A DNA stretch of 64,000 nucleotides from Fictibacillus phosphorivorans (GTDB lineage Bacteria; Bacillota; Bacilli; Bacillales; Fictibacillaceae). The stretch is from contig NZ_CP015378.1 of NCBI RefSeq assembly GCF_001629705.1, positions 3,906,001-3,970,000 on the forward strand. The letters run 5' to 3'. The notes under the pieces were generated by a model. That model was given only the letters and a program-made list of their open reading frames with translations. It searched no databases and was not told the origin of the DNA. Positions 1,934 through 59,060 of this stretch are shown here, in pieces. The position numbers and the translations under genes were made by a program. Numbering within the stretch: position 1 is the stretch's first letter; every line of letters begins with the position of its first letter.

Positions 1934-2050
1934 TGTCGAAAATCGGATAAATAAATTTATACACGGAATTATTGGGCTTATACCCGGAATTAATGTGCTT
2001 ATCTGCGGATATAAAAAGAATTACCTCGTAATTATTAAAAAGCGATCGTC
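1934..2050 (+). repeat. 21-bp phased array, family E (copy 1)
   Basis: Four units with a core CGGAATTA-like motif have their CG at 1964, 1985, 2006 and 2027, exactly 21 bp apart. A TGTCGAAAATCG head lies at 1934. The array fills the convergent gap between the hpaB-like gene (+) and the HAD gene (-). It is the same family as the array at 58944-59060, with which it shares the head and the tail ATTATTAAA. Confidence 0.85.
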
Positions 2051-2116
2051 TTGTGCGGACATATAGGTAAAGTGTCGTTTCCACAAGTACACTACATCAA
2101 AATATTTAATTATTAT

Positions 2117-2797
2117 TCAGCTCTGATTTTGAATAGTTATGTCTTTCAACAAGAATTCCCTAATTTCTGAAACAGAGTTAATAATTTTTGTAGGTTTAAT
2201 AGCTGTAAGTTCTTCCATTGAACCATACCCATAGGTAACTCCTATTGAATCGATACCTGTGTTATGCGCCCCAATAATATCATGCTTTCTGTCACCGATC
2301 ATGATGAACGATTCCTTTGGTTGATCGTTGTAATGGTAAAGAATGTGCTGGATGATCTCTGTTTTGCTCGTGCGTGTTCCGTCGAGATTGCTGCCAACGA
2401 TCAGGTCAAAATGGTGGTGGACGTTGAAATATTTTAAAATTTCTTCTGCAAATACGGTAGGTTTTGAAGTTGCGACAACTAATGTATGGCCATTGTCTTT
2501 TAGTTCTTGAAGAAGTGTGGGGATATGTTTGTAAAGTGTGTTTTCGAACATGCCTACATCTTTGAAACTTTCACGATAGTACGTGATGGCTGTTCCAACC
2601 TGTGTCTCATCAAAGGAATAGCATTCGTAGAATGATTGCTGAAGCGGCGGTCCGATGAAAGATTCTAAGTCATCCAGATTTTCTTCTGAGATTCCCATTC
2701 TATTAAGGGCATATTGAACAGATTTTGTGATGCCGATTTTAGGATCGGAAAGCGTGCCGTCTAAGTCAAACAATATATATTCATAATTCTTCATCAT
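2117..2797 (-). CDS. HAD-family phosphatase (phosphoglycolate phosphatase-like)
   Basis: Motif I is FDLDGTLSD near residue 10 (nucleophile Asp11, acid Asp13). Motif II is VVATSKP and motif IV is MIGDRKHDIIGA, so this is a class IA HAD hydrolase with the helical cap seen in phosphoglycolate phosphatase and PpaX. The product is 226 aa and has no signal peptide. Three consecutive ATG codons end at 2800, 2797 and 2794; the middle one has the best spacing (8 nt) from AAGGAGC. A longer frame up to 2896 would read through the fabZ terminator and is rejected. The gene is monocistronic on the minus strand behind fabZ. The substrate cannot be told from sequence; dephosphorylation of phosphoglycolate or a related small phosphoester is the family norm. 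Confidence 0.85.
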   Translation of the reverse strand: MMKNYEYILFDLDGTLSDPKIGITKSVQYALNRMGISEENLDDLESFIGPPLQQSFYECYSFDETQVGTAITYYRESFKDVGMFENTLYKHIPTLLQELKDNGHTLVVATSKPTVFAEEILKYFNVHHHFDLIVGSNLDGTRTSKTEIIQHILYHYNDQPKESFIMIGDRKHDIIGAHNTGIDSIGVTYGYGSMEELTAIKPTKIINSVSEIREFLLKDITIQNQS

Positions 2798-2851
2798 CAT
2801 ATATGCTCCTTCGCTGCCATATTTTGAAAGCTCAAAATAAAAATAACATAA

Positions 2852-2907
2852 AAAGAAAGCTTGAAATAGGACATACACCCTAAGGGAATGCTCCATTTCA
2901 AGCTTTT
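2852..2907 (-). terminator. Rho-independent terminator of fabZ
   Basis: On the minus strand the sequence reads AAAGCTTGAAAT ... ATTTCAAGCTTT followed by C and a T run. Twelve-base arms enclose a loop that itself contains a TCCCT/AGGG hairpin. It lies 26 bases past the fabZ stop. Confidence 0.85.
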
Positions 2908-2920
2908 ATGATAATTGTGT

Positions 2921-2933
2921 GGGGTCAGACCCC
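2921..2933. repeat. GGGGTCAGACCCC palindrome, copy 1
   Basis: A 13-bp near-perfect palindrome abuts the fabZ stop codon. The same core occurs as a doubled 26-bp palindrome at 8967-8992 behind spoIID. It is short, GC-rich against AT-rich surroundings, and has no U-run of its own. Confidence 0.75.
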
Positions 2934-3358
2934 TATTTGCCTAGTGCGAAGGTGATCTCGACTTCGCAGGCTACTTGGCCATCCACAGTTGCGATTCCTT
3001 TGCCTTTACCGATCGAACCACGCACACGTGTCATCTCAACTTCAAGGCGAAGTTGATCGCCTGGTACGACTTGCTTTTTGAAGCGGCAGTTATCAATGCC
3101 TGCGAAAAATGCTAGACGTCCGCGGTTTTCTTCTTTCTTCAGCATCGCGACTGCACCTACTTGAGCAAGTGCTTCTACGATCAGTACGCCTGGCATAACC
3201 GGGTACTCTGGGAAGTGGCCGTTGAAGAATTCTTCGTTTGCTGTAACGTTCTTGATTCCAACAGCACGCTCTCCCTCTTCTACTTCTAAGATGCGGTCGA
3301 TCAGCAAGAACGGGTAACGGTGCGGAATGATTTCTTTAATTTCTTCAATCGTTAACAT
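2933..3358 (-). CDS. fabZ: 3-hydroxyacyl-[acyl carrier protein] dehydratase FabZ
   Basis: FabZ dehydrates beta-hydroxyacyl-ACP to trans-2-enoyl-ACP in type II fatty acid synthesis in the cytoplasm. The hot-dog fold signature is clear: NGHFP carries the catalytic His48, and [17 protein letters not shown] carries Glu62. The 141-residue length is that of B. subtilis FabZ (YwpB), whose sequence also begins ML. I use the ATG at 3358, not the in-frame TTG two codons upstream, because the GGTG box is better spaced. The gene is followed by the 13-bp palindrome and a strong terminator. It lies downstream of flhO/flhP as in B. subtilis. Confidence 0.96.
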
Positions 3359-3488
3359 ATACAAACATCACCTTTCACTTATGGCTTCTAATTTATTTTT
3401 ATTATACTTGGTATTGTTACCTGGTACTAATTTTACATCAAAAGAAAACAATGACTACATACAATGCCATTGTTTTTTTATTATATCT

Positions 3489-3776
3489 TTACGCATCTTT
3501 TTCTACAAGGTCGATGATGTGTGTCCATGTTTCTTTTTCAAACACGTTCATCGGCTTACCGTCACCAATTACGCCATAGCCAACCATCGTACCAACAGCA
3601 AAACAGACGATGATTCCACAGACAAGAAGCAGAAGACGCAGCCAGATCGGAAAGCTTCGTTTCGTTCGGCGTTGGTACCACTGTTTCTTCTCTTCTTTAG
3701 AAGACGTTTCTTTCTCTTGGTAACGCTGTGTTTTCGGTTTTTCGTTTTTATTCAACTCTTGCATCTTATTCGTCAT
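3489..3776 (-). CDS. EpuA-like small membrane protein ('RNA polymerase subunit beta' family)
   Basis: The 95-residue protein has a charged, Lys/Glu/Gln-rich N-terminal half, the conserved FPIWLRLLLLVCGIIVCFAV membrane segment (about residues 42-61) and the tail GTMVGYGVIGDGKPMNVF...ETWTHIIDLV. This is the PF11772/EpuA pattern, which databases often label DNA-directed RNA polymerase subunit beta although it is only a single-pass membrane protein. The start ATG follows AGGTAGG by 5 bases. It lies 15 bp downstream of flhP, so it is probably part of that transcript. Its function is not established. Topology suggests a cytoplasmic N-terminus and an extracellular C-terminal stub. Confidence 0.8.
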   Translation of the reverse strand: MTNKMQELNKNEKPKTQRYQEKETSSKEEKKQWYQRRTKRSFPIWLRLLLLVCGIIVCFAVGTMVGYGVIGDGKPMNVFEKETWTHIIDLVEKDA

Positions 3777-3791
3777 ACAAACCTACCTCAT

Positions 3792-4619
3792 TTAGCGAAG
3801 CCCGTTTACTAACCCCATCATTTGGTCAGCAATTGTAAGAGAACGCGCATTAAATTGATAAGAACGCTGTGTTTGAATCATTTCCGTCATCTCCGTGGAG
3901 ATGTTTACATTCGAGGATTCGAGTGCACCTTGCTGAACGAAGTTACCTGCTCCAGCATTTACTTCCTCTATCAGTTGATTCAACGGAATGTCCTGTGGCG
4001 CTTGCAAGTTCTGTCCAACAGCTACCATCAACTGAGGCCGAACCATGTTCACAATCGCAAGCTGTCCTGATTCAACAATCGCTCCATTATTTAACGTTAC
4101 CGAAACTTGACCATTTTGTCCAATGGTAATTTTGCTATGGTCAGCTGGAATCGTAATCGGTCCATCTACACCTATTACTTTATTGCCCTCTGATGTAACA
4201 AGCTCTAACTCATTGGCGTTGTTAGCAGACGGTGACAAATAGAACGCGCCGTCTCGTGTGAACTGCAACGATTCATTTCCATTGTTATCTACAGCGGAAA
4301 CTTGAAAATAATAGCTAGGCTGTGTGAGCGCCACATCAAGAAGCCTGCCTGTCTGCTGGAGCGTGCCAGCTTCTAAACTGAGCGCAGTTGAAGAAACACG
4401 CGCACCGCTTCCAAGCCGAATTCCGTTTGGTGTTAGACGACCCGCTTCAGTCGGATTCAGCGCTTCACTATTAATCTGCTGAAAAAGAATATCCGAAAAT
4501 TGAGCCTCACGTCTTTTATAGCCATTCGTCGTGCTGTTCGCCATGTTATTGGAGATGGTATCGAGCTTGTGCTGCAGCTGCCCCATCGTTACTGCTGCTG
4601 AAATCATAGACTGGTTCAT
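3792..4619 (-). CDS. flhP: Flagellar hook-basal body protein FlhP (FlgG-like)
   Basis: The 275-aa protein has both ends of the flagellar rod/hook family. The N-terminus contains LDTISNNMANSTTNGYKRRE (about residues 19-38), and the C-terminus has SSNVNISTEMTEMIQTQRSY followed by FNARSLTIADQMMGLVNGLR, the coiled-coil-forming terminal helices. B. subtilis FlhP is of similar length and also sits after mbl and flhO. It is expected to be exported by the flagellar type III system and to form part of the distal rod. A GATCCCCC sequence complementary to a good RBS lies just before the ATG. Its partner FlhO is 12 bp upstream. No other flagellar gene is in the window. Confidence 0.92.
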   Translation of the reverse strand: MNQSMISAAVTMGQLQHKLDTISNNMANSTTNGYKRREAQFSDILFQQINSEALNPTEAGRLTPNGIRLGSGARVSSTALSLEAGTLQQTGRLLDVALTQPSYYFQVSAVDNNGNESLQFTRDGAFYLSPSANNANELELVTSEGNKVIGVDGPITIPADHSKITIGQNGQVSVTLNNGAIVESGQLAIVNMVRPQLMVAVGQNLQAPQDIPLNQLIEEVNAGAGNFVQQGALESSNVNISTEMTEMIQTQRSYQFNARSLTIADQMMGLVNGLR

Positions 4620-4631
4620 GTTTTGATCCCC

Positions 4632-5465
4632 CTAACCGATTCGGCCAATTTCGTTCGATGCTTTTTCCATCGTTCGGTCGTAAGCTTGAAGTACTTTTTG
4701 ATTTGCTTCAAACGCCCGATAAGCCGTCAGCATCTCTGTCATCGTCTGTTCCGTGTTCACGTTCGAACGTTCTACAAACCCTTGCTGCACGTTGTACGTG
4801 ATGTTTGGATTCCCAAGAGCACTCGGCGCATTCCCGTTTCCATCAAGTCTGAACAAGCCTGTGCCTTCTTTTACAAGATTATTAGGGTTCGTGATGTACG
4901 CAACGTCAATCTGCCCCGCAACTCTACCGTTATCAAGCACCGTACCGTCTTTGTTCACTGTGAAATTGTCGCTTCTCACCGTGATCGGGTTGCCGTCTGT
5001 TCCGAGCACATAATAGCCTTCAGGCGTTACAAGACTTCCTTCTGCATCAACTGAAAAATGGCCATTTCTCGTAAAGCGTTCTTCACCGTTTACGTTCAAT
5101 CGGAAAAAGAGTCCGCCCGGCTTTCCTGTTTCCGGGTCAAGTGGAACTTGTCCTTGAAGAAGCGCCATATCTGTTTTGATTCCTGTCTCGCGCATGTCTC
5201 CTTGCAGAAAGTTAGGAGTCGTTTCCTGCACGTAAACACCTGTTGATAGTGCAGCAGGTCCAATCGGGTAGTTGTTCGGCAGTTTTTTTCCGTTCATTTC
5301 CGTCTCCCCCATATGCTGAAGCAGCATAGTAGGGAACGTGCGCAGACTCGCATTGTCCGCTTTATATCCAGGCGTATTCGCATTCGCCATGTTGTTCGTT
5401 AAAATTTCTTGTTTGCGCTGCTGTGCCAGCATGCCGGCTGCAGCATTATAGAAGCCTCTTAACAC
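4632..5465 (-). CDS. flhO: Flagellar hook-basal body protein FlhO (FlgG-like)
   Basis: This is a rod-type axial flagellar protein of 277 aa. LRGFYNAAAGMLAQQRKQEI and LTNNMANANTPGYK form the N-terminal family signature, and SNVNTEQTMTEMLTAYRAF with QKVLQAYDRTMEKASNEIGR forms the C-terminal one. The frame is open 30 codons further upstream, but the GTG at 5465 gives the canonical start (VLRGFY) and is preceded by GGAGG with 8-base spacing. It is the first gene of the flhO-flhP unit downstream of mbl, as in B. subtilis. The upstream gap holds a 21-bp array and the mbl terminator. Confidence 0.92.
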   Translation of the reverse strand: MLRGFYNAAAGMLAQQRKQEILTNNMANANTPGYKADNASLRTFPTMLLQHMGETEMNGKKLPNNYPIGPAALSTGVYVQETTPNFLQGDMRETGIKTDMALLQGQVPLDPETGKPGGLFFRLNVNGEERFTRNGHFSVDAEGSLVTPEGYYVLGTDGNPITVRSDNFTVNKDGTVLDNGRVAGQIDVAYITNPNNLVKEGTGLFRLDGNGNAPSALGNPNITYNVQQGFVERSNVNTEQTMTEMLTAYRAFEANQKVLQAYDRTMEKASNEIGRIG

Positions 5466-5652
5466 GGAGTATTCCTCCTGTATTTGTAATCTGGACACAA
5501 AATGTCTCTTCTGTTGTATCGACAGTTTTTTACAATTATTAATAGAATTCTGCAAAAATTGTGAGATTCCTTTTTCATGATGAGGATTTTGTCCTAGAGG
5601 TGGTGAGGAGAAGTAAAGCGGCTTAGAGCAGAGGCTCCCAACCAGCCTTGTT

Positions 5653-5785
5653 TGTCGAAAAGCCTATAAATCCATTTGAAGGACTATAAACTTTTGTGAA
5701 GGACTATAAAAGTTGTTTTAGGGCCTATAAATTTTATTTTCAGGCCTATAAAGTTCAACTTACGGCCTATAAGCTGGTTCTTCTA
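5653..5785 (+). repeat. 21-bp phased array, family D
   Basis: Six CCTATAAA/ACTATAAA units start at 5664, 5684, 5704, 5725, 5746 and 5767 (spacing 20, 20, 21, 21, 21). The TGTCGAAAA head is at 5653. The array lies between the mbl terminator and flhO in an otherwise gene-free 385-bp gap. The remaining part (5466-5650) shows no coding sequence. Confidence 0.85.
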
Positions 5786-5811
5786 ATCATTTTCCCTTTC
5801 ACATCTTCCAC

Positions 5812-5844
5812 ACAAAAAAATGCCACCCCAATACGGGAGGCATT
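5812..5844 (-). terminator. Terminator of mbl
   Basis: The minus strand reads ATGCCTCCC-gtatt-GGGGTGGCAT followed by T7, seven bases after the mbl stop. Confidence 0.85.
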
Positions 5845-5850
5845 CCTTCA

Positions 5851-6846
5851 TTAAAATACTTTTCTTTTTGCGATTTTATCCATATGTTCAAGCATTAAGC
5901 CTGTTCCTTGAGCGACTGCTCTCATCGGCTCTTCTGCGATCAATACAGGTACTTTTAATTCGTCTGCAAACAGCTGATCAATTCCGTGAAGAAGCGCTCC
6001 ACCACCTGTTAGCATGATGCCACGGTCGATGATGTCAGCGGATAATTCAGGCGGCGTTTTTTCTAGAACACTCTTTGCCGCTTGAACGATAACCATTACT
6101 GGCTCCATCAAGGCGCGTTGGATTTCTTTTGAACCTACTGTAATTGTACGCGGAAGTCCTGATACCATGTCACGGCCACGGATCTCGAGCTCTTCGTCGC
6201 GCTCGTAAACGGTAGCGACGTTCAACTTAATGTTTTCAGCAGTACGTTCACCAATCAACAGCTTGTACTCTTTTTTAATATATTGAAGGATTTCAGTATC
6301 GAACTTGTCCCCAGCCATCTTAATAGAAGAGGACGTAACGATATCTCCCATGCTCAAGACCGCAATGTCAGTTGTGCCACCACCGATGTCCACAACCATA
6401 TTGCCGCTCGGCTGGAAGATATCCATCCCCGCCCCAATTGCAGCCACTTTAGGCTCTTCTTCAAGGAAAATATGTTTTGCTCCGCACTTTTGCGCAGCTT
6501 CTCTGATCGCTTTTTGTTCAACGGACGTAATGTTCGTTGGTGTACAGATCAAGATTCTAGGTTTGGCAAACATGCCTTTTACGTTAATCTTATTAATAAA
6601 ATGTTTTAGCATCTGCTCAGTTACTTCAAAGTCAGCGATAACGCCGTCTTTTAACGGACGGATCGCCACGATGTTTCCAGGTGTACGGCCTACCATGCGG
6701 CGGGCTTCTTCTCCTACTGCGAGTGCTTTTCCGGTATTCGTGTCGATCGCAACGACAGATGGCTCATCGAGTACGATCCCTTTTCCTTTTACATAAATCA
6801 GTACATTAGCGGTACCAAGGTCAATTCCAACGTCCCTTGAAAACAT
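5851..6846 (-). CDS. mbl: MreB-like rod-shape protein Mbl
   Basis: This is an actin-like ATPase that forms membrane-bound filaments directing lateral wall synthesis. It has the actin-fold signatures DVGIDLGTANVLIYVKGKG (phosphate 1, residues 5-23), GNMVVDIGGGTTDIAVLS (phosphate 2, near 155-175) and LTGGGALLHGIDQLF (adenosine). At 331 aa, with spoIIID upstream and flhO/flhP downstream, it matches B. subtilis Mbl rather than MreB or MreBH. The ATG start follows GGAGG. SpoIIID is 195 bp upstream, so the two may be partly co-transcribed. There is no sign of damage. Confidence 0.95.
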   Translation of the reverse strand: MFSRDVGIDLGTANVLIYVKGKGIVLDEPSVVAIDTNTGKALAVGEEARRMVGRTPGNIVAIRPLKDGVIADFEVTEQMLKHFINKINVKGMFAKPRILICTPTNITSVEQKAIREAAQKCGAKHIFLEEEPKVAAIGAGMDIFQPSGNMVVDIGGGTTDIAVLSMGDIVTSSSIKMAGDKFDTEILQYIKKEYKLLIGERTAENIKLNVATVYERDEELEIRGRDMVSGLPRTITVGSKEIQRALMEPVMVIVQAAKSVLEKTPPELSADIIDRGIMLTGGGALLHGIDQLFADELKVPVLIAEEPMRAVAQGTGLMLEHMDKIAKRKVF

Positions 6847-7041
6847 GTTATATCCTCCCTGTTAACATCCATACGATATAATGACATTTTTAGTAAAAAA
6901 TCGAAGTTCTATCCAATTTATCATTATATCACAAGTCTGTCGAACAAGGTGAAATATTGTCAAAAATTAATTATTTGGCATTGGAACGAAGCGGCACATA
7001 ATGTATTATCGTTTCATCTAACACCCTTACATGTCATAAAC

Positions 7042-7308: not shown

Positions 7309-7628
7309 ACCACTCGCCTCCCTAAAATGGATGTGAGAGATGCGATAGAGACTTGTATGAACAAGCTACGTGACAAGTTTCGTTGTCATCTTCGGCTTAT
7401 AAGTATTGCTTCCATTCCCCTTTTTCCACCGCAGCCATAGTACGATTTCTCACCGCTCACCCTCAATTGAATTATTGTAGGTTTTGTAACATCTTATTAA
7501 CCAAGTTTTCGTTATATGCCTAAATCTCAACTGGGACAAGGGGAAATGTCCATATTTGGGAAAAAACCTGCATAAACAGTTGGAAAATTAAGTTATTTAA
7601 GTGAATGTGGATGAAGAAGAAAATTTTC

Positions 7629-7790
7629 ACGGTACGTGTTTTTATATGTATTACGCGTTCGCCGGTAAACGTGCTTTTTTCACCGGTAAAACTTCTGTGA
7701 CCACCTGAAAATCGCTTCGTTACACCGGTGATGCAATCGTGACCACCTGAAAAGAGGAGTTTTTCACCGATAAGTGGTCACATCTGTCTA
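7629..7790 (+). repeat. 21-bp phased array, family B (copy 1)
   Basis: Six CACCGGTAAA/CCACCTGAAAA units have their first C at 7660, 7681, 7702, 7723, 7744 and 7765, exactly 21 bp apart. The two half-motifs (CACCGGT and CACCTGAAA) are mixed. A head, CACGGTACGTGTTTTTATAT, starts at 7629 and is shared with the arrays near 14880 and 44193. It fills the 534-bp gap between spoIIID and spoIIQ. The rest of that gap (7309-7628) has only the spoIIID upstream region and nothing I can name. Confidence 0.9.
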
Positions 7791-8966: not shown

Positions 8967-8992
8967 GGGGGTCTGACCCGGGTCAGACCCCC
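8967..8992. repeat. GGGGTCAGACCCC palindrome, copy 2 (doubled)
   Basis: This is a perfect 26-bp palindrome in which GGGGGTCTGACCC meets its own complement at CCCGGG. It sits 18 bp past the spoIID stop and before the terminator. It shares its core with 2921-2933, so both copies lie directly behind a minus-strand gene. Confidence 0.85.
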
Positions 8993-14741: not shown

Positions 14742-14881
14742 GGTGGAAATCCATCATTTTCAGGTGGTTATTTATGAATCTAAGGTGGTAAGAGGATGCG
14801 TACAGGTGGAACGACACACTTTTCAGGTGCTCATTACCTCTTTACCGGTGAACGTGTAACAAATATAAAAACACGTACCGT
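14742..14881 (-). repeat. 21-bp phased array, family B (copy 2)
   Basis: Six GGTGG/GGTGA units (complement of the CACCTG/CACCGG motif) begin at 14742, 14763, 14784, 14804, 14826 and 14847. The head ACACGTACCGT at 14871-14881 is shared with family B copies 1 and 3 in reverse. It lies just beyond the murA terminator. The 314-bp gap (14638-14951) contains only this array and that terminator. Confidence 0.88.
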
Positions 14882-14908
14882 AAAACATAAAACGCTAACT
14901 AAAAACAG

Positions 14909-17759: not shown

Positions 17760-17872
17760 ATAATTCAAGAAGTTCTTCAATTAATTCTAGAAATTCCTGA
17801 ATTAATACGGCGAGTTTTTGATATAATCCAGCGAATTTTAAGCATATATCGGCGAATCTTCAAAAATCGACA
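17760..17872 (-). repeat. 21-bp phased array, family F
   Basis: Five AT-rich units aligned at TAATTC/TAATAC/TAATCC/TATATC begin at 17761, 17782, 17803, 17824 and 17845, exactly 21 bp apart. A TCGACA head (17867-17872, complement of TGTCGA) lies on the nuoN side. The whole array can be read on the plus strand without a stop as heptads such as LIRRVFD and IIQRILS. The 582-bp gap (17385-17966) otherwise holds the partial R1 element and the nuoN terminator. Confidence 0.85.
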
Positions 17873-26772: not shown

Positions 26773-28194
26773 CTACACCTCCACGTCATGTGGTTCGTAA
26801 TCTTTTCTAAGCGGATGTCCTACCCAATCGTCTGGCAGCATAATGCGCGTTAAGTTTGGATGACCTTCAAAGTGGATTCCCAAAAGGTCAAACGTTTCAC
26901 GCTCTGGCCAGTTTGCTCCTTCCCATAACGGGGTAATGGAATGGGTAGTGGCGCTATTTCTATCTATTTTTACTTTTAGAGCAACCGATTGGCGATGATT
27001 GTACGAATACAGATGGTTATAGACTTCAAAATGCGTTTCAAAATCGGTGCCGTGCATTTCAGATAAATAATCAAAACGAAGCTGATCGTTATATTTTAAA
27101 AACTCCGCAATTTTGTAATAGGAATCAGGTTTTGCAACTAAGGTAGGGACGTCTTTTGACAGTCTGTTAATATAGGAATCTTCGAGTACATCTTCTCCTA
27201 GATGTTCTTTGATGACTTTTCTGTAGGTATCGAGGATAGGTTGGTTAGGTGATGGCTTTTCTTCTGCGACAGGTTCTGTTGCTGCACCTTTTGCATTCGC
27301 GGCAGCTCGTGCTTTTGCTGCTGCAGCTGCTTTGGCTTTGGCGGCGGCGATTGCTTTTGCCTTTTCGTCATCACCTATTGGACTAGTTGGTGCATCTGAT
27401 CCTGCTTCACGGGAAGCTTTCGCTTTAGCAGCTGCTGCTGCTTTTGCCTTGGCTGCTGCGACGGCCTTTGCTTTTGCCGCTGCTTTCGCTTTTTCATCGT
27501 CTGAAGCGGGTTCGGTGGACGCGTCGCCTCCACTCTCTCTTGCTAGTTTTGCTTTAGCAGCTGCTGCTGCCTTTGCCTTGGCTGCTGCTGCAGCTTTTGC
27601 TTTCGCTGCTGCTAGCGCTTTTTGTTTCGCAAGATCATCTGTTGGCTCATCTGTCTGTGGAGCTTCCGCTGTATTTTCTTTTTCAGCCTGACGCTGTTTT
27701 GCGAGTTCTAGAGCTTTCGCTTTCGCCTCTGCGGCGGCTTTCTTTTTCAGTTCTTCTTTTGTTAATTCTGGCTCGTCTGCTGTCGGCTCGGTTCCTTCTG
27801 CAACTTTTTCCTTTTCAGCTTGTCGCTGCTTCGCGAGCTCGAGGGCTTTTGCCTTTGCTTCTGCAGCCGCCTTTTTCTTCAGCTCTTCTTTTGTTAATTC
27901 TGGTTCAGCTGTTGCCGACTCTGTTCCATCTGCCGCTTTCGCCTTTTCGGCCTGACGTTGTTTCGCAAGTTCGAGCGCTTTTGCCTTCGCTTCTGCGGCT
28001 GCTTTTTTCTTTTGCTCTTCTTTTGTTAACTCTGGTTCGGCTGCGGTCGGTTCTGACACATTTGCCGCTTTCGCTTTTTCAGCCTGTCGCTGCTTCGCGA
28101 GCTCAAGAGCTTTTGCTTTCGCCTCTGCAGCAGCTTTTTTCTTTTGTTCTTCTATCGATAACCCTTCATTGGAATCATTTTGCTTATCGGTCAT
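26773..28194 (-). CDS. nuoC: NADH-quinone oxidoreductase subunit C with long Ala/Lys-rich N-terminal repeats
   Basis: Only the last ~155 residues (about 318-473) are the 30-kDa NuoC domain, ending in [20 protein letters not shown] and the RKDYEP tail. The first ~315 residues are low complexity: four repeats of about 39-42 residues built on [20 protein letters not shown] plus [10 protein letters not shown], then [16 protein letters not shown] stretches separated by acidic linkers. Heptad-like Ala/Lys/Glu helices suggest a long charged helix or a flexible tether. Extended NuoC proteins occur in other Bacillus, but this one is very long. The ATG overlaps the nuoB stop. A 269-codon opposite-strand frame over this stretch is a shadow of the repeats. 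Confidence 0.93.
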
Positions 28195-29964: not shown

Positions 29965-30129
29965 AGTTTCGGTGAACGAAACTTTTTTATGCATACCTGG
30001 GTGGGTACCTTTGCAAATCAATCAAGAAATTATAGCGTTCAATCCACAAAAATCAGCGTCTAATCCACGAGTTTTACGCATGAATCCAAAAGTTTTGGCT
30101 GTTTATCCTCAAGTCGACAAACCTCGACA
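29965..30129 (-). repeat. 21-bp phased array, family A (copy 1) with leading palindrome
   Basis: AATCCA/TATCC units start at 30020 (degenerate), 30041, 30062, 30083 and 30104, exactly 21 bp apart; the spacer between cores is GAGTTTTGGC-like. TCGACA heads lie at 30113 and 30124 on the glpD side. At the other end is the hairpin AGTTTCG-gtgaa-CGAAACT (29965-29983). The 316-bp gap 29911-30226 holds only this array and two terminators. Confidence 0.9.
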
Positions 30130-35950: not shown

Positions 35951-36117
35951 AGTTTCGGTTCCCGAAACTTATTAACTTAGATACCGTGCTGGGTATTAGC
36001 TTAATGCAATCCAAAAGTTTAGGCTGTTTATCCAGAAGTTTTGCCTGTTTATCCACGAATTTTAGCCCTCAATCCATAAGTTTTGCTACTTTATCCACGA
36101 GTTTACAATCCTCGACA
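35951..36117 (-). repeat. 21-bp phased array, family A (copy 2) with leading palindrome
   Basis: AATCCA/TATCCA units begin at 36008, 36029, 36050, 36071 and 36092, exactly 21 bp apart, with GAAGTTTTGCC-like spacers. The TCGACA head is at 36112, 20 bp past the last unit on the atpC side. The hairpin AGTTTCG-gttcc-CGAAACT (35951-35969) is at the far end, as in copy 1. Confidence 0.9.
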
Positions 36118-36209: not shown

Positions 36210-36623
<414 letters not shown>

Positions 36624-44183: not shown

Positions 44184-44192
44184 GCTGTTTTT

Positions 44193-44350
44193 ACGGTACG
44201 TGTTTTTATATTTATTACACGTTCACCGCTAAACTTCGAGTTTCCACCTGTAAATGATCGCTGACCACCTGAGATGAGCCTGTTTTCACCTGTAACTTCA
44301 TCTCGACCACCTGAAAACTCGTCCACACCACCGCTAAACACGTTTTTCAA
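44193..44350 (+). repeat. 21-bp phased array, family B (copy 3)
   Basis: Six CACCGCTAAA/CACCTGTAAA/CACCTGAAAA units have CACC at 44224, 44245, 44266, 44287, 44308 and 44329, exactly 21 bp apart. The head ACGGTACGTGTTTTTATA starts at 44193, nine bases beyond the terminator. The last unit ends AAACACGTTTT, the inverse of the head's ACGTGTTT, so the array ends could pair. The minus strand over the array is a 75-codon open frame of heptads (SGGxxxF type). The 320-bp gap 44096-44415 holds nothing else but two terminators. Confidence 0.92.
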
Positions 44351-45260: not shown

Positions 45261-45382
45261 ACTGTCCACTTCGGCATAAATACTGTCGACTTTTCGCATT
45301 TTACTGTCCACTTCCATCATAATACTGTCCACTTTTCACAATTTACTGTCCACTTCCGTCATAATTCTGTCCACTCAGTTTT
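45261..45382 (+). repeat. 21-bp phased array, family C
   Basis: Six ACTGTCCACTT units start at 45261, 45282, 45303, 45324, 45345 and 45366 (the last reads TCTGTCCACT), exactly 21 bp apart; the spacers alternate TTCxxCATAAT- and TTCxCAATTT-like. Read on the plus strand they form the heptads FTVHF/NTVHFS without a stop. The array lies in the 400-bp gap between upp and the sortase gene, downstream of the sortase stop; a GGGTgcagtACCC hairpin precedes it. It is the most regular array of the window. Confidence 0.93.
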
Positions 45383-45445
45383 TCCACACAACAAAAAAAC
45401 ACCCACTCCACACGAATGGATGCTTTCACATAATGTTAATTATCC

Positions 45446-46185: not shown

Positions 46186-47550
46186 TTAAGAATTGTTCGT
46201 CGCTTTTCTACGAAGAATCATCGCTGTTGTTGCTGAAGCTAGGATCAAGCCGAACATGCTCCAAAGGATAGCGTCATTTGATGTTTGGCTCATTCCGCCC
46301 ATACCTGTTTTCGGCATATCAGATGGCTTTTGGCCCGCAAACTTATCTGGGAATTGATCAACGATCGCACCAGATAGGGATTGTCCTACTCCGAACATGT
46401 GTGCATAAGCTTCAGAGATGTTCTTGTAAGCAGCTGGATAATCTTTTCCTGTATAGCTGTTAAATGCTGCTAGTAATTGATCGATGTGTACTTTTAATCC
46501 TTCTTCTAGATCAGCCGCTTTTAGGCGTCCTTCAGTTGCCGTATCTAAGAATTTAGCTTGTTCCATACGATACTCATCGAGCTCAGCGATCGCTTGCTTT
46601 TTGCCTTCTTCGTTCTTTTCTGCTGTAGCTGTTACATAGTCAACGAAGTATCCGATATGGCTGCTCCAGATCTCTTTAAATTGCGCTGCACCTTCTGCAC
46701 CATATACAGATTCAACTGCTGCTGTGATGTCATCTGTGTTTTCGCTCAGTTCAGCTGCCGCTGCTTCAAAGTCTTTCGCGCCATCGATTCCTTTTTGCAT
46801 CGTTAATGCCGCCAAGGCTGCATGGGCAGAGAACACACTGTTCAAGTCAGCACGAAGATCAGCTGCAGGTGTATCTACTGATTTATTTTCAAATTTGTCA
46901 GGGAACTGATCTGTGATCGCCCATGAAAGACCTTTACCTGTCATGAACATGTGGTGCATCGCTTCTGAAATGTTGTCATACGCTTTGTCGTAGTCGCCCG
47001 TTCTGTAGCTTTCAAACGCCCAGATCAATTGGTCGATGTGTACTTTTAAACCTTCTTCTAGATCAGCCGCTTTTAATCTACCTTCTGTTGCTTTATCTAG
47101 GAAGTCAGCTTGTGTTGTACGGTATTTATCCAGTTCTGCAAGAGCTTGTTTTCTTCCTTCTTCATTATTTTCAGCTGTTGCTGTTACATAATCTACGAAA
47201 TAGCCGATGTGGCTGCTCCAGATTTCTTTAAATTGATTTCCAGCTTCTTCTCCATAAACAGATCCTACTGCTTTGGATAGTGCCTCTGTATTTTGGTTCA
47301 GCTGTCCTGCCGCTGCTTCAAAATCCTCTTTTCCGTCAATTCCTTTTTGCATCGCTACTACAGCTAGGAATGCATGCTCTGAAAGAAGAGTATCCAATGA
47401 TGCGCGAAGATCGATTGCTGGGTTTGAAACTTCTGCTGACATAGGTCCCTTGCTATGGTTCTCATGACCATGTGCATTTGCCACTGAGAATGTTGGTATT
47501 AGTAGTGAAACACTTAACGGTACGGCTAAAAGTGCTTTTTTCATTTTCAT
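46186..47550 (-). CDS. LPXTG-type surface protein with duplicated four-helix domain
   Basis: The product (454 aa) has a signal peptide (cut near VANA-H, residue 26), a His-rich HGHENH start, two copies of a ~185-residue helical domain (about 45-225 and 233-405), and the wall signal MPKTG (412-416), a membrane segment and RRK. The two domains share AMQKGIDG or TMQKGIDG, FKEIWSSHIGYFVDYVTATA and RLKAADLEEGLKVHIDQL almost unchanged, a recent duplication. The repeated His and Glu positions suggest a metal-binding helical bundle; similar proteins are labelled copper amine oxidase-like, but I see no oxidase signature. The partner sortase is next to it. Confidence 0.8.
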   Translation of the reverse strand: MKMKKALLAVPLSVSLLIPTFSVANAHGHENHSKGPMSAEVSNPAIDLRASLDTLLSEHAFLAVVAMQKGIDGKEDFEAAAGQLNQNTEALSKAVGSVYGEEAGNQFKEIWSSHIGYFVDYVTATAENNEEGRKQALAELDKYRTTQADFLDKATEGRLKAADLEEGLKVHIDQLIWAFESYRTGDYDKAYDNISEAMHHMFMTGKGLSWAITDQFPDKFENKSVDTPAADLRADLNSVFSAHAALAALTMQKGIDGAKDFEAAAAELSENTDDITAAVESVYGAEGAAQFKEIWSSHIGYFVDYVTATAEKNEEGKKQAIAELDEYRMEQAKFLDTATEGRLKAADLEEGLKVHIDQLLAAFNSYTGKDYPAAYKNISEAYAHMFGVGQSLSGAIVDQFPDKFAGQKPSDMPKTGMGGMSQTSNDAILWSMFGLILASATTAMILRRKATNNS

Positions 47551-53599: not shown

Positions 53600-53776
53600 C
53601 TTGGCGAGTGCCAAGAAGCCGCTTAACAGGGGCTTGTTAACCGTAATCCCACACAAAGTGGCGGTGAATCCACGAGTTTTGGCTTGGAATCCACAAGTTT
53701 GAGTGGTTTATCCACGAGTTTTGCCTTTGAATCCAAAAGTTTTGGCAGTTTATCCACGAGTCTACAATCTTCGACA
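53600..53776 (-). repeat. 21-bp phased array, family A (copy 3)
   Basis: AATCCA/TATCCA units start at 53667, 53688, 53709, 53730 and 53751, exactly 21 bp apart, with a weak extra at 53645. The TCGACA head is at 53771, 20 bp after the last unit and on the ywlG side. A CTTGGC-gagt-GCCAAG hairpin (53600-53615) is at the far end, in place of the AGTTTCG hairpin of copies 1 and 2. Confidence 0.92.
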
Positions 53777-53822
53777 CGTTACGACAGCCTCACTTCATCG
53801 CCCCGCACATCACAACACTACA

Positions 53823-53848
53823 GAAAAAAGCCCTCACCAAGAGGGCTT
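53823..53848 (-). terminator. Terminator of the ywlG gene
   Basis: AAGCCCTC-ttggt-GAGGGCTT followed by T5 on the minus strand. Confidence 0.85.
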
Positions 53849-53859
53849 CCCACCACGAA

Positions 53860-54432: not shown

Positions 54433-54473
54433 GAGATGGTCTTCCCTTCATTTTATGGGTTTATAGCTTTAGG

Positions 54474-54914
54474 CTATTGGCCTTCATATTGAGAGATTTT
54501 ATCTACACGGCGACCGTGACGTCCGCCTTCATATTCTGTCGTCAGCCATACTTTTGCGATTTCGAGTGCGAGACCCGGCCCGATGACACGTTCACCCATT
54601 GCAAGTACATTGCTGTCATTATGCTGTCTTGTAGCTTTTGCGCTGAATAGATCATGAACAAGCGCACAGCGGATTCCTTTAACTTTGTTCGCTGCAATGC
54701 TCATTCCAATGCCCGTACCGCAGATTAAGATTCCGCGATCAGCTTCACCGTTGGCTACTTTTTCTGCTACAGGAATCGCATAGTCTGGATAATCTACAGA
54801 CGTATCGCATTCACAGCCCACATCTTCGACTTGCATACCCAGCTCTTCGATCATGCTAATGATTTCTTTTCGTAATTCAACTCCGGCGTGATCTGATCCA
54901 ATTGCTACCTTCAT
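54474..54914 (-). CDS. rpiB: Ribose-5-phosphate isomerase B
   Basis: 146 aa. KVAIGSDHAGVELRKEIISM contains the family start (Asp8/His9 region), CGTGIGMSIAANKVKGIRCA contains the catalytic Cys region, and RQHNDSNVLAMGERVIGPGL is the phosphate/ring-opening segment. It isomerises ribose 5-phosphate and ribulose 5-phosphate and sits between ywlG and ywlE. The close rbs operon in the window does not share its transcript. Confidence 0.94.
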   Translation of the reverse strand: MKVAIGSDHAGVELRKEIISMIEELGMQVEDVGCECDTSVDYPDYAIPVAEKVANGEADRGILICGTGIGMSIAANKVKGIRCALVHDLFSAKATRQHNDSNVLAMGERVIGPGLALEIAKVWLTTEYEGGRHGRRVDKISQYEGQ

Positions 54915-55022
54915 GTTGTGTGCACCTGCTCTCTCATACTTTTTTTCATTATATGCTCTCCCAATAGCCAGTTCAATATCACTTCCAGGCTATTTCAGAC
55001 AGCCTTACCTCATTTTGTCCTA

Positions 55023-55631
55023 CTACTTCTTGCTATCGTCTTTTTTCATTAATTTTTCAATAAGGACTTCAATTTCATCTCGAGTTTCTTGATAAAGATG
55101 AAGCGGTCCACCGAACGGATCTGTAATGTCTAGAGAGGGGATCTCACTCTCTAACTTCATCCTTCTCTCAACGAGCGGCCTTACTTCTCTCTCAAACGCC
55201 TGCCTTACTTCTTCATCTGCCGAATCCTTTGACATATATTGAAGCTTCAGCATCTCGATCTCTGTATAGAGCTCATAGATTTCTTCAATCTTTTTCTGCT
55301 CATCGTCGTCCAGAACATACTCTTTTAATGTATACGTCTTATTCACTGCATCTGGCCATCGCCCGACGAGCGCATGTTTATGGCTTTCGGTCATCGTTAA
55401 GATAAGATCTGCCCACTCGATCAAATAATCGGACACACCTTGTGACTGATGACTTTCTTTAATACTTCTTTCCGAAAGAGCTTGTGTCGCATTCGAGCTC
55501 ATCACGGCACCGTTTCCAGCAAATACACCAGCTGATTTAACGTTGAACTTACCTTTTCCTTTTTTACGTAAAATGGCCTCCGCCATCGGACTGCGACACG
55601 TATTGCCTGTACAAATAAATAAAACATTCAT
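55023..55631 (-). CDS. ywlE: Low-molecular-weight phosphatase YwlE (protein arginine phosphatase type)
   Basis: The P-loop VLFICTGNTCRSPMAEAIL holds Cys7 and Arg13, and Thr11 (as in YwlE) in place of the bulkier residue of tyrosine phosphatases, the feature linked to phosphoarginine choice in B. subtilis. The acid loop is ITDPFGGPLHLY. At 202 aa it is about 50 residues longer than B. subtilis YwlE: an inserted or extended helical segment (EIEMLKLQYMSKDSADEEVR and VRPLVERRMKLESEIPSLDI) lies before the DPFGG loop. The insert is the odd part; the catalytic residues are intact. It probably reverses McsB arginine phosphorylation. Confidence 0.85.
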   Translation of the reverse strand: MNVLFICTGNTCRSPMAEAILRKKGKGKFNVKSAGVFAGNGAVMSSNATQALSERSIKESHQSQGVSDYLIEWADLILTMTESHKHALVGRWPDAVNKTYTLKEYVLDDDEQKKIEEIYELYTEIEMLKLQYMSKDSADEEVRQAFEREVRPLVERRMKLESEIPSLDITDPFGGPLHLYQETRDEIEVLIEKLMKKDDSKK

Positions 55632-55756
55632 GGTGAATTCACCTCATATTCTATCTTTCCCTATTTTTCTATAGGTTAACGCTCTTACTAGTAAGTATAT
55701 CATCGGATTAGTGAATAAAAAAATGCCTGTTTTTCGTATTCGAAGTAGTTTTGTAA

Positions 55757-55890
55757 GTTGTTTCTCTCCGTTCCAGGTTGCTTCGCTTTCCGCGGGGCGG
55801 GCGGTGAGCCCCTTGCCGCTTTGCGCCTCTAAGGGTCTCACCTGTCCCACTCGTCCTAGCCGTAGTCTCACACCTTCCACTCCAATCAAC
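55757..55890 (+). repeat. ~130-bp dispersed element R5
   Basis: GTTGTTTCTCTCCGTTCCAG start, TTGCTTCGCTTTCCGCGGGG, GGGCGGTGAGCCCC, GGGTCTCACCTGTCCC, and the end CCAATCAAC. It lies between ywlE and mntP, in the same direction as R2 and R4. Confidence 0.85.
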
Positions 55891-55936
55891 CTCTCAATGG
55901 GAGAAACACTCCAGAGAATAACAGCAATGATAGCAT

Positions 55937-56488
55937 TTAGAACGGAAATAGAATCTTCACCCCAAAAGCAAGCAGAATGCAGCCGCCGAACGCTTCACCA
56001 TAGGAACCGAGCCACTTCTGTACCTTTTTCCCCATGATCAAGCCCGCCCACGTTAAGACCATGCTCATAAGACCAAACATCGTAATCGTAAGCCACGTTT
56101 TTGCTCCATAGATACCTAGTGATAACCCCACTGAAAAACTATCTAACGAAGCGCTTAGCGCAAAGACGAATAGCCCAATTCCGATCGGCTGTACGAACGG
56201 TTCATCATCACTTGAGAACGAAGACCGAATCATCGTTACACCCAGTATGACAAGCAGAATTCCACCGATGATGGCTGCTATACCGCCGAAATGAACAGAG
56301 ATCTGTTTGCCGAGCGTCATTCCTGCAAGTGGCATGAGCATATGAAAGATTCCTATCGTCATTCCTATTTTCATAATTTGTCTTATGCGAAGCGATAACA
56401 TCCCCATACCTAGGCCGATCGAAAAAGCGTCCATACCTAGCGCGACTGACATAAATAATAGTGTCATCCATTCTCCCATGGTTGCCAA
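55937..56488 (-). CDS. mntP: Manganese efflux pump MntP
   Basis: Six-helix exporter of Mn(II) (183 aa). Two conserved half-repeats contain SVALGMDAFSIGLGMGML (about 13-30) and LFVFALSASLDSFSVGLSLG (about 105-124); the two Asp residues are the proposed metal-binding sites. The start is given as TTG at 56488; ATG at 56479 is an alternative (GGAAG box at 3 or 12 bases). In B. subtilis it is ywlD, between ywlE and ywlC. The window has the same order except for an inserted kinase gene. Confidence 0.9.
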   Translation of the reverse strand: MATMGEWMTLLFMSVALGMDAFSIGLGMGMLSLRIRQIMKIGMTIGIFHMLMPLAGMTLGKQISVHFGGIAAIIGGILLVILGVTMIRSSFSSDDEPFVQPIGIGLFVFALSASLDSFSVGLSLGIYGAKTWLTITMFGLMSMVLTWAGLIMGKKVQKWLGSYGEAFGGCILLAFGVKILFPF

Positions 56489-56675
56489 ATACTTCCCACT
56501 CCCTTAACCATCATACTTTCAGACTATGCATGTCTACTTTTAAAAAGACTAAAAACCATACAAGCTGTTGGAAGAATGAAAAAATGGAACTCTTTACCGC
56601 TTTAGAGGAAGGGATAATGTGATTTTTATCGTATATAAAAGGAAGTGAATCTGTATGTAAAGGAGAGGAACAAGC

Positions 56676-58895
56676 ATGGTCCATAACGCATCGGCCATAA
56701 CGGCAAACGGACAAGACATGTGGCGATCATCGCCATTCCCTACTGGCCTATCACGCCAAAAAAGCATGACTTTCCGATGTATGAAGCATAATGAAAACCT
56801 CATTATGACCGAGAGCGAAGGTGAACTGTTTGACTTGTTTGGCCTTAAACGGGAAAACGTCTTGCAAAAGAGAATTGAAGACATCTTCCCTAAAGAAATA
56901 GCAGACTTTAAAAAAGAAATGTACGAAAGAGCGCTGAACGGGGAAAGTCTTACGTACGAATCGGAACTGAACGGTATTCCCTTCTTAGCTGCGATCGGTC
57001 CTATCTATGATAAAGATGGTACCGTTTCTGAAGTGTATGGTTTTTGTGTCGATCTCACAGAGAGAGTGTCTGTTGAAACGCAGCTTGCTGAGAGTGAACA
57101 GCGTTTCCGTTCACTGATGGACCATAACATCGATGCTCTTTTTTCACTAGATCTAGACGGCAAGTTTACAACTGTCAACAAAGCGTGTTCGACGTTGAGC
57201 GGTTATAGCGAGAAAGAGCTTTTGAACATGACGTTCAATCCGTTCATGCTGCCAGACAGAAGAGCTGCCGCGATCGATCAGTTCAAGGACGCTTTAGAAG
57301 GCAATTCTAAAATGTACGAAACCCGGATCAAGCAAAAGAACGGCGAAACACGTCAGATCATGTTCACCCTTACTCCGATCATCGTTCTCAATAAAGTGCT
57401 CGGTGTTTTCGGAATCGCAAAAGACGTAACCGCAAAAAGAGAAGCCGAAAAAGAACTCCGGGAAACAAAGGATCTGCTGGAATCGGTTATCTATCATTCT
57501 AGTGATGCGATCTCAGTCGTCCACCTAACAGACTTCTCTGTAAAAGTGAATCCGGCGTTTGAATTCATATACGGATGGTCCGAAGACGATCTTGCTAATA
57601 TGACTTCACACATTCTACCCGTTGTTCCAGAGGATAAGGTAGCTGAATCCGATCGGCTCATGACGATCGTCAAGCATGGCGGATATGTAAAAGGTGTCGA
57701 GACGATCCGGTTAACGAAGTCTGGCAAACGGTTAAATGTAAGCCTTTCCTTAAGTCCGATCTATGGCGAGAACGGTGAAGTCGTGGCACTATCCGCGATT
57801 TCAAGAGATATCACAGATAAAAAACTAAAAGAAAAAGCATTAAAAGAAAGCGAAGAAAAGTACCGTATCATCGCAGAGAACACGACTGATTTAGTAGGTG
57901 TCGTTGACCTTGAAGGAAACGTCAAATACGTCTCCCCTTCAAACCGTCTTCTTCTCGGCTTTGACCCGTCTCTTTATGATGGAAAAAAGATTCAAGGATT
58001 CTTCCATTCAGATGACCGAGCAAAGGTAAGAATGGCGATGAACGAGATGGTTCAAACTCAAAAGCCTGTGAAGTTTGAAGTTCGATGCAAACATGCACAT
58101 GGCCATTGGGTGACCCTTGAAGCAAACGCGACCCCTATCGCAAACGATTCAGATCAACCTGATTCTTTCGTTGTTGTAGCTCGTGATCTGACTGAACGAA
58201 AAAAGACCGAAGAGATGCTAAGAAAATCTGACAAGCTCTCTGTTCTCGGTCAGCTTGCCGCTGGTGTAGCGCACGAGATCCGTAATCCGCTCACCTCGAT
58301 CCGCGGATTTTTGCAGCTTTTGCAGTCAAGAGCATCAGAGAATGAGGATTATTACGAGATCATGCTCTCAGAGATCGATCGAATCAACAGCATCGTAGGA
58401 GAGTTCATGTTGCTCGCGAAGCCCCAAGCCATGAACTTTGTGCAAACTGACCTGCGCCAACTGTTGCGACACGTGATTTCTATTCTTGATACACAGGCGA
58501 TCCTAACGAATGTTCAGATCTATTTTGAGAGCGAACACGATCTGCCAGAAATATGGTGTGTCGATAATCAGATCAAGCAAGTGTTCGTGAATATGCTCAA
58601 AAACGCGATCGAAGCGATGCCAACAGGCGGTTCTGTACATATTCATCTAAAGAAAGAAGGCGGATATGTGATTGCTTCTTTCATCGATCATGGCTGCGGA
58701 ATATCAGAAGAACGCTTGCCAACATTGGGTGAACCTTTTTATACCACAAAAGAAAAAGGTACCGGCCTCGGCCTCATGATCTGTTACAAAATCGTAGAGA
58801 ACCACCATGGTAAAATCTTGATCAACAGCAAGATTGATGAAGGAACGACCTTCTCCATCCTGCTTCCGATCGATAAAAACAAGCCTGTGTCTTGA
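56676..58895 (+). CDS. PAS-domain sensor histidine kinase (sporulation-kinase-like)
   Basis: The 739-residue protein has no membrane segment or signal peptide. There are four PAS-like domains: about 35-130 (weak), 140-253, 262-380 and 393-505, each ended by a DLTER/DITDK/DVTAK motif. The H box GVAHEIRNPLTSIRGFLQL has His533 in the HEIRNPL form of KinA-E-type kinases, and the ATPase part has NMLKNAIEAM (N), DHGCGISEERLPTLGEPFYT (G1/F) and KGTGLGLMICYK (G2). The size and domain plan fit B. subtilis KinE or KinA; which signal it reads cannot be said. It stands in opposite direction in the middle of ywlD-ywlC, so it was probably inserted. No response regulator is beside it, as expected for a phosphorelay kinase. 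Confidence 0.85.
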   Translation: MVHNASAITANGQDMWRSSPFPTGLSRQKSMTFRCMKHNENLIMTESEGELFDLFGLKRENVLQKRIEDIFPKEIADFKKEMYERALNGESLTYESELNGIPFLAAIGPIYDKDGTVSEVYGFCVDLTERVSVETQLAESEQRFRSLMDHNIDALFSLDLDGKFTTVNKACSTLSGYSEKELLNMTFNPFMLPDRRAAAIDQFKDALEGNSKMYETRIKQKNGETRQIMFTLTPIIVLNKVLGVFGIAKDVTAKREAEKELRETKDLLESVIYHSSDAISVVHLTDFSVKVNPAFEFIYGWSEDDLANMTSHILPVVPEDKVAESDRLMTIVKHGGYVKGVETIRLTKSGKRLNVSLSLSPIYGENGEVVALSAISRDITDKKLKEKALKESEEKYRIIAENTTDLVGVVDLEGNVKYVSPSNRLLLGFDPSLYDGKKIQGFFHSDDRAKVRMAMNEMVQTQKPVKFEVRCKHAHGHWVTLEANATPIANDSDQPDSFVVVARDLTERKKTEEMLRKSDKLSVLGQLAAGVAHEIRNPLTSIRGFLQLLQSRASENEDYYEIMLSEIDRINSIVGEFMLLAKPQAMNFVQTDLRQLLRHVISILDTQAILTNVQIYFESEHDLPEIWCVDNQIKQVFVNMLKNAIEAMPTGGSVHIHLKKEGGYVIASFIDHGCGISEERLPTLGEPFYTTKEKGTGLGLMICYKIVENHHGKILINSKIDEGTTFSILLPIDKNKPVS

Positions 58896-58915
58896 GTAGA
58901 CGCAGGCTTGTTTTT
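58883..58915 (+). terminator. Terminator overlapping the kinase stop codon
   Basis: AACAAGCCTGTGTC-ttgagta-GACGCAGGCTTGTT then T5. The TGA stop lies in the loop, so the last codons are part of the hairpin. Confidence 0.88.
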
Positions 58916-58943
58916 TAGGTGGACGCTTAGTGTAGTGGTTGTT

Positions 58944-59060
58944 TGTCGAAAATCGTTTAAATAATTTTATCCGTGAAATTATAGGCTCTATCCGTGAATA
59001 TATTTTGAATTACCGTGAAATTAAAAGGGATTACCGTGAAATTATTAAACATTACGATTT
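58944..59060 (+). repeat. 21-bp phased array, family E (copy 2)
   Basis: Four CCGTGAAATTA units have CG at 58972, 58993, 59014 and 59035, exactly 21 bp apart. The TGTCGAAAATCGT head at 58944 is mirrored by ACGATTT near 59053, so the array is flanked by short inverted ends. It lies 29 bp past the kinase terminator. Same family as 1934-2050. Confidence 0.9.

Follow-up and report, generated by a model that had tools for sequence, protein, structure and literature searches.

A 64,000-nucleotide window of the Fictibacillus phosphorivorans chromosome (positions 3,906,001–3,970,000 of the 4.23-Mb single-contig chromosome of the source genome, designated G000) contained eleven intergenic arrays of short, unlike motifs recurring every 20–21 bp, in which the motif cores changed slowly between relatives, the spacer letters changed fast, and the spacer length hardly changed. 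That these are multi-site binding arrays with a selected helical spacing is well supported and, in our judgment, probable. The fuller reading, to which we give an even chance, is that they are phased operator arrays for a putative architectural DNA-binding protein, dispersed as interspersed elements and retained at the 3' ends of genes, possibly as boundaries between converging transcription.

The eleven arrays had been picked out in a sequence-only reading, and all were recovered in place, with lag 21 or 42 scoring highest in each. When each array stretch was scored alone (lags 12–54, 1000 dinucleotide shuffles each), the best lag was 21 in seven arrays and 42 in the four at 7629, 44193, 45261, and 53600, which have units of two alternating sub-types. 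In all eleven, the lag-21 score exceeded the shuffles (p = 0.001–0.002). Scoring of whole intergenic regions (lags 12–70) gave the same lags except at 14742, where the best window lay at 14861, mostly in A-rich DNA flanking the array. Scored alone, the 14742 array reached 32, and 6 of its 21 columns had at least five of six units equal (0.4 expected, p = 0.0005). A seven-codon protein repeat was disfavored by the intergenic position and by stops in 58 of the 66 reading frames through the array stretches; one or more stop-free frames of about 37–55 codons were present in 7 of the 11 stretches, an outcome favored by a period divisible by three.

The genome-wide scan covered 464 kb, about 11% of the 4.23 Mb, made up of the window and 20 stretches of 20 kb at even intervals; 64.4 kb of this sample was called intergenic. 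Genes were called from codon usage by a caller that misses or misplaces some of them (examples are the Y1 gene described below and the region at 44193). Peaks numbered 25 at lag 21, 16 at lag 42, and 7 at lag 63, compared with 4, 3, and 3 at the off-period lags 20, 23, and 41 and at most 2 at each remaining lag from 10 to 70. This sharp intergenic excess excluded, within the sample, the absence of any genome-wide preference for 21, 42, and 63. Ten of the 25 lag-21 peaks lay in the window (the 14861 peak being counted among them and the 44193 array not), and one of the 15 outside it, L064:13881, read as chance. Scaling from the 14–15 non-window peaks in 400 kb gave a very rough estimate of about 150 arrays per genome. 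Array density was higher in the window than the genome average.

Seven families, each with more than one copy in the genome, were named in this analysis from 40 of 140 candidates scored for genome copies: F1 (CACCKGTAAA), F2 (TTTATCCGTGAA), F3 (TTTATCCACGAGTTTT), F4 (ACTGTCCACTT), F5 (GACTTAATT), F6 (GGCCTATAAA), and F7 (GGCGAGTTTT). The sequence-only reading had described a shared period of 21 bp, exact in nine arrays and off by 1 bp in two; the period was instead 20–21 bp, and the array at 5653 mixed the two. Among 48 arrays of one superfamily in Fictibacillus genome G005, found by a search allowing spacings of 18–24 bp only, 226 of 236 unit spacings were 20 or 21 bp (19, 7; 20, 104; 21, 122; 22, 2; 23, 1). 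The F1 arrays of G005 (L221–L260) had a mean unit spacing of 20.5 bp compared with 21 bp in the window, as if the favored geometry differed between G005 and the window species.

For the comparison of cores and spacers, columns were set from the window alone and divergence was then measured between seven other genomes, using same-family alleles of 10 arrays; the array at 17760, common to the window and G004 at the orthologous site, was excluded because too few relatives share it. Divergence was 279/3763 (0.074) in core columns versus 910/3570 (0.255) in spacer columns, with 440/1889 in intermediate columns and 4801/30378 in the flanks. The core/spacer ratio was 0.29 (95% interval 0.17–0.39, bootstrap over the 10 arrays), and the core diverged less than the spacer in all 10, the array at 1934 being judged on a single genome pair. 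Between the window and its relatives, indels numbered 19 per 5080 array sites (14 of them of 1 bp) versus 193 per 15643 flank sites, and were thus 3-fold rarer in arrays, although the spacer bases of orthologous arrays changed faster than the flanks. This result supported the earlier suggestion of selection on spacing. The comparison with sister species revealed no drift of the period, and orthologous arrays kept their spacing.

Whereas the motifs had been described as not resembling one another, the profiled families shared one layout: about 3 bp of A/T-rich sequence, a G+C-richer center of about 5 bp, about 4 bp of A/T-rich sequence, and 7–8 neutral bp. This plan was profiled in F3 (60 units) and in four variants, or dialects, of F1 (75, 177, 57, and 15 units), and we take it as the shared property behind the unlike motifs. 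Scored against dinucleotide shuffles, A/T content at the 10.5-bp period gave a z of 22 for the window arrays, of 15 both for 14 further G000 arrays and for 10 arrays from other genera, and of 24 (32 at 10.25 bp) for 53 G005 F1 sequences, many of which are related copies, compared with 1.4 for 91 array-free intergenic segments. Column permutations made identically in all units, which keep the 21-bp period, matched the observed value in 0 of 500 trials in each of two sets. AA/TT steps gave the same 10.5-bp picture, at 3.4- to 3.9-fold in arrays. The mixture of 20- and 21-bp spacings and the one-turn A/T periodicity supported the proposal that the units face one side of the helix.

End modules were common to several families. 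F1 arrays open with a hairpin-like head, TTTTACGGTACGTGTT...ATTACACGTTC; the inverted repeat ATACC..GGTAT precedes the first unit in both F3 and F7; and TGTCGA or TCGACA lay within 60 bp of 16 of 25 G000 arrays versus 6 of 91 array-free intergenic segments (7/11 in the window and 9/14 in the sample, one of these nine inside a unit; 5/19 in other genomes). Behind the common F1 head in G005, the cores were CGCTC, CRCCC, CACGC, and once of F3 type, and two of 53 heads had no array behind them. At orthologous sites, different cores stood in register across genomes, which we call a dialect swap. The site at 35951 held F3 in the window and five genomes and F7, in register, in G006 and G004; at 29965, four genomes had F3 as the window does, G002 had a truncated F3 array, and G014 and G006 had F7. 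F1 in the window and six genomes was replaced in G012 by the CGCTC dialect (TTTCGCTCAAT) at 7629 and by a TGCACGC motif at 14742. The site at 44193 held F1 or the CGCTC dialect, with CGCTCA cores at loci L009, L011, and L052; the 3' end of the neighboring gene also differs, which makes recombination of a longer stretch likely at this site. In nine aligned genomes (G002, G004, and G006, with at least about 1 kb of other DNA there, were left out), a convergent slot between two terminator-like hairpins at G005 3,706,853 contained CGCTC in two, CACGC in one, and F6 in three, and was array-free in three. The 1934 array had same-family counterparts in G009 and G002 and an empty slot in G003 and G004, its flank anchors not being found in G014, G006, or G012; that at 45261 was shorter by one unit-length in G006, that at 53600 was truncated in G006 (L011), and that at 58944 was absent in G003. 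A further interspersed repeat (GCTCGCTTTCCGCGGGGC...CCTGGAGCGGAAATCAAC) adjoined some arrays, at L077:1411-1500 and at several G005 loci.

Location was assessed as the fraction of intergenic regions of at least 100 bp that had a peak at lags 20, 21, 41, or 42. In the G000 sample, the peak was present in 11/18 convergent, 14/114 tandem, and 2/40 divergent regions (p = 3 × 10^-6), and in 6/12, 9/95, and 2/33, respectively, when the window was removed; the control lags 25, 26, 46, and 47 gave 0/18, 1/114, and 1/40. The orthologous windows of seven genomes, which are non-independent, gave 31/34, 26/117, and 0/43. The corresponding counts were 1/1, 3/34, and 0/4 in G019 and G022, 0/9, 1/49, and 0/24 in G030, G033, and G037, and 0/11, 3/43, and 0/17 in G028 and G035. 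In G005, 22 of the 52 F1 heads with both neighbors called were convergent.

F1 orientation followed the replichore in G000 and G005, the two genomes analyzed for polarity, with coordinate 0 taken as the origin; in the G005 pieces, GC skew was mostly positive on one chromosome half and mostly negative on the other. Of the F1 heads, 53 of 67 in G005 (p = 2 × 10^-6) and 26 of 34 in G000 (p = 0.005) faced the origin; the reversed F1 pattern, used as a control, had 5 and 2 matches, respectively. The other families gave 14/18 (F3, G000, p = 0.02), 9/13 (F3, G005, p = 0.29), 9/10 (F4, p = 0.05), and 6/9 (F2, p = 0.5). In the G005 context set (53 heads out of 55 that matched with no more than one mismatch), 42 of 53 heads were in the replichore sense; where the neighboring genes converge or diverge and their direction is uninformative, 20 of 26 faced the origin, as did 4 of 6 at tandem sites with lagging-strand genes. 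F1 was sparser near the terminus, with 12, 17, 3, and 2 heads in successive quarters from the origin in G000 and 16, 24, 19, and 8 in G005.

In the mechanism that we favor, each array would be a row of 4–7 operator-like sites for a putative sequence-specific architectural DNA-binding protein or a few paralogues, and each site would consist of a GC-rich center of about 5 bp, which comes in dialects, between two A/T-rich flanks. The 20–21 bp spacing of the sites would place the proteins on one face of curved DNA and allow them to assemble into one complex; we infer, as had been suggested earlier, a cooperative or multi-subunit binder. Whole arrays (about 130–180 bp, with shared end modules) would spread as interspersed elements, become established at the 3' ends of genes, chiefly where two genes converge, and then come under selection on cores and spacing. 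Their most likely job would be that of a boundary where converging transcription and its supercoils meet, a plausible guess that we hold with less than even confidence and the least certain step of the scheme; if true, it would describe an insulator-like element with changeable letters and a fixed geometry. A broader proposal, which we consider speculative, is a dialect-coded boundary system in several genera, in which fast-evolving binders would diverge in recognition of the 5-bp center while the flanks and helix spacing stayed fixed, and in which curved nucleoprotein filaments between converging genes would act as insulators whose dialects are exchanged in place between species. In such a system the letters would be free and the geometry would not.

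Several observations weigh against the operator-array reading. A cognate DNA-binding protein was not found. There was no clear convergent excess (convergent, tandem, divergent) in the small samples from G005 (1/7, 2/20, 0/9), G008 (1/5, 1/18, 0/8), and G017 (1/22, 7/120, 1/33), and convergent intergenic DNA is where any insertion is best tolerated. Some array slots were empty in relatives, and therefore no single array is needed everywhere; the TGTCGA end was missing in 4 of the 11 window arrays (three F1, one F4), and therefore there is no universal end. As to the layout, the F1 centers were set by the search rule, so that only the F1 flanks are an independent result, the F3 center was less purely GC, the layout of F2 and F4–F7 comes from reading only, and array-free intergenic DNA had a weak AA/TT signal at 10.5 bp (z = 3.2, 1.3-fold). 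Biased gene conversion among units or copies could also yield slow-changing cores; it could mimic part of the core signal but would not explain the fast spacers.

The strongest rival, which we regard as possible but not probable, is that the arrays are selfish non-autonomous mobile elements, each array being the terminal or subterminal binding region of a transposase-like enzyme. The head and TGTCGA modules would then be the ends, the dialects diverged transposase specificities, the gene 3' ends safe landing sites, and the replichore polarity a result of insertion into one strand at the fork. The end modules common to several dialects, the slots that were empty or filled by different families across genomes, and the orientation of F1 by replichore, which held also at convergent and divergent sites, all fit this account. 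So do eleven G005 copies at scattered sites with mostly unrelated flanks, which had spacers as well as cores in common; whole elements therefore spread fairly recently in that lineage. Unlike dead insertions, though, the cores were conserved after insertion while the spacers decayed, and neither an autonomous parent nor a target duplication was recognized at the sites compared, where empty sites were seen in relatives and the flanks were too diverged for target-site duplications to be read. A query of seven joined arrays, with F4 left out, matched 17 of 18 Fictibacillus genomes (the source genome included) and 0 of 23 others, about 10 candidates being scored per genome; a plasmid or phage origin was rejected, as the same query matched none of 72,556 plasmid and 50,697 phage records.

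The only transposase family tested as mobilizer was that of RAYT-like Y1 (HUH) enzymes, with which the strand bias was compatible. A Y1_Tnp match was present in 18 of 18 Fictibacillus genomes (three matches in G003, four in G010, and a single one in each of the other 16), usually as one conserved open frame of about 188–195 amino acids. In the 16 Fictibacillus genomes inspected, the DNA up to about 3 kb from the Y1 gene contained no array peak, with one 10-bp head match in G013, and the RAYT-like gene of G000 was flanked instead by GGGGTCAGWCCCC palindromes, which may be its REP elements. The presence of Y1 did not track the arrays, since G021 had an array without Y1 and G033 had Y1 genes without an array peak (80 kb). 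The candidate was therefore rejected; counting against this rejection and in favor of the selfish element, a 21-bp array-like peak adjoined a Y1 transposase gene in G028, a member of another genus (L284:3609). Back-to-back GGGTCAGACCC palindromes, of the same sequence as those beside the RAYT-like gene, occurred in the window at 8969–8990. The operator-array and selfish-element readings are compatible: the arrays may have spread selfishly and then been retained where useful.

Beyond the genus, 20- or 21-bp arrays of different sequence were found by reading. Those in Sporosarcina, Bacillus pinisoli, and Salipaludibacillus (L018, L030, L033) had a 21-bp period and quite different motifs, and one array at each of these loci carried TCGACA at an end; peaks in Metabacillus and Peribacillus looked like coding repeats. 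The 80-kb samples of G030, G033, and G037 contained no lag-21 peak. G017, initially a candidate for an array-free genome, proved to have fewer arrays in other dialects (ATGGCACATAAG, TCGCAAATAAAT, TTTACGGGTC), mostly at 20 bp, one of them with a TGTCGA end (L348:7734).

A second rival holds that the arrays are gyrase- or HU-type wrapping sites, in which about 130 bp, with A/T alternating at each helical turn, would absorb positive supercoils at convergent gene ends and the exact letters would be minor. BIMEs in E. coli are said to take up positive supercoils at such ends. The 10.5-bp A/T periodicity, array length, and convergent location would suit wrapping, yet a general wrapper needs no specific centers, and the centers were conserved in every unit and across orthologues; we consider this explanation improbable.

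A role as non-coding RNA, with the arrays transcribed and acting as repeated RNA motifs, is one of two proposals by Subirana and Messeguer and is in our view quite unlikely here. Inverted repeats occur at several array ends, and 52-nt repeats are reported as transcribed in B. coagulans (PMC8161180, PMC8625621). Against it, the arrays read in detail lie past terminator-like hairpins, an Rfam scan of the window gave no match at the gathering cut, the F1 head can pair (by reading) with the F1 core but not with other dialects that have the same head, and a constrained 20/21-bp spacing is no obvious demand of RNA. Ordinary tandem duplication with drift, for which TRF finds head-to-tail copies, can hardly account for units that have cores but not spacers in common, the recurrence of one period in seven or more families, sister species that keep the spacing, and core/spacer and indel data that contradict drift.

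Table 1. Arrays, associated inverted repeats, and the RAYT-like gene (window positions unless stated)
Feature	Position	Strand	Details
F2 array	1934..2050	+	TGTCGA end at 1934; about 4 units from 1957; core like TTATACCCGGAATTA, variant of TTTATCCGTGAAATTA
F6 array	5653..5785	+	TGTCGA end at 5653; 6 units; core GGCCTATAAA; spacing 20-21
F1 array	7625..7785	+	Hairpin-like head (TTTCACGGTACGTGTT...ATTACGCGTTC) from 7625; six units 7660-7785; core CACCKG(T)AAA
F1 array	14742..14885	-	Six units 14742-14867; head (reverse complement) ends 14885
F7 array	17760..17872	+	Cores AATTC.AGAAATT and GGCGAGTTTT; TCGACA end 17867-17872
F3 array	29965..30129	+	Units about 30039-30122; TCGACA at 30114 and 30124
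Inverted repeats of F3 array 29965	29965-29983; 29993-30009		AGTTTCG..CGAAACT; ATACC..GGTA
F3 array	35951..36117	+	Five units 36008-36112; TCGACA 36112-36117; adjoins gene 36210-36617
Inverted repeats of F3 array 35951	35951-35969; 35981-35997
F1 array	44189..44349	+	Head 44189-44222; six units 44224-44349
F4 array	45261..45386	+	Six units; core ACTGTCCACTT; 42-bp alternation
F3 array	53600..53776	+	Left inverted repeats; five units 53663-53767; TCGACA 53771-53776
F2 array	58944..59060	+	TGTCGA end 58944-58949; four units 58965-59048; core CCGTGAAATTA
RAYT-like Y1 transposase gene	G000:C1:3852625-3852954 (L267)		About 187 aa

The window also contained a 132-bp tandem repeat of 3.5 copies (27680–28143) inside a minus-strand open frame (26773–28194). 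Its protein at 46186–47550 had 98% matches in F. phosphorivorans DE0352 and F. nanhaiensis DSM 23009, which places the genome in Fictibacillus.

The sequence-only reading knew of no named bacterial element of this kind, but the class was in print by 2021. As described by Subirana and Messeguer (Int J Mol Sci 2021, PMC8161180), tandem repeats of Bacillus have a constant size of 20–21 or 52 nt and a variable sequence, with several families per species; they are in general non-coding, contain a short conserved sequence, and have no assigned function. The same text already notes two helix turns per 20–21-nt repeat and proposes either small RNAs or a polymerizing nucleoid protein for which a constant repeat size would be a requirement. 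The Fictibacillus arrays are members of this constant-size class: they likewise have a constant size of 20–21 bp and at least four repeats, several sequence families in one genome, families limited to near relatives, and a short characteristic sequence within the units. Our literature search found the class only in PMC8161180 and, for the 52-nt repeats, in PMC8625621, and the main text of the former does not mention Fictibacillus, intergenic, terminator, convergent, or orthologous. As far as that search goes, the cross-species constraint on spacing, the common layout, the end modules, the dialect swaps, and the convergent-gene and replichore biases are added here. Fixed geometry, slow cores, layout, and convergent placement narrow the range of functions for constant-size, variable-sequence repeats, and the common layout accounts for dissimilar motifs having a single role.

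Other known systems resemble the arrays in part. REP, BIME, and REPIN elements are interspersed, intergenic, mosaic, and located at gene 3' ends, as the arrays are; unlike REP and REPIN elements with their RAYT, the array units are direct repeats rather than palindromes, and no array peak lay near the RAYT-like gene in 16 genomes. Plasmid iterons and ParR-type centromeres are direct repeats about 20–22 bp apart that present one helix face to a multi-protein assembly, and the arrays share the direct repeats and this spacing but are chromosomal, dispersed, and without a plasmid match to the seven-array query, with many copies and dialects. CRISPR and TIGR arrays combine a constant and a variable piece in tandem, as the arrays do, whereas the Fictibacillus elements form many arrays per genome with cores of about 10 bp.

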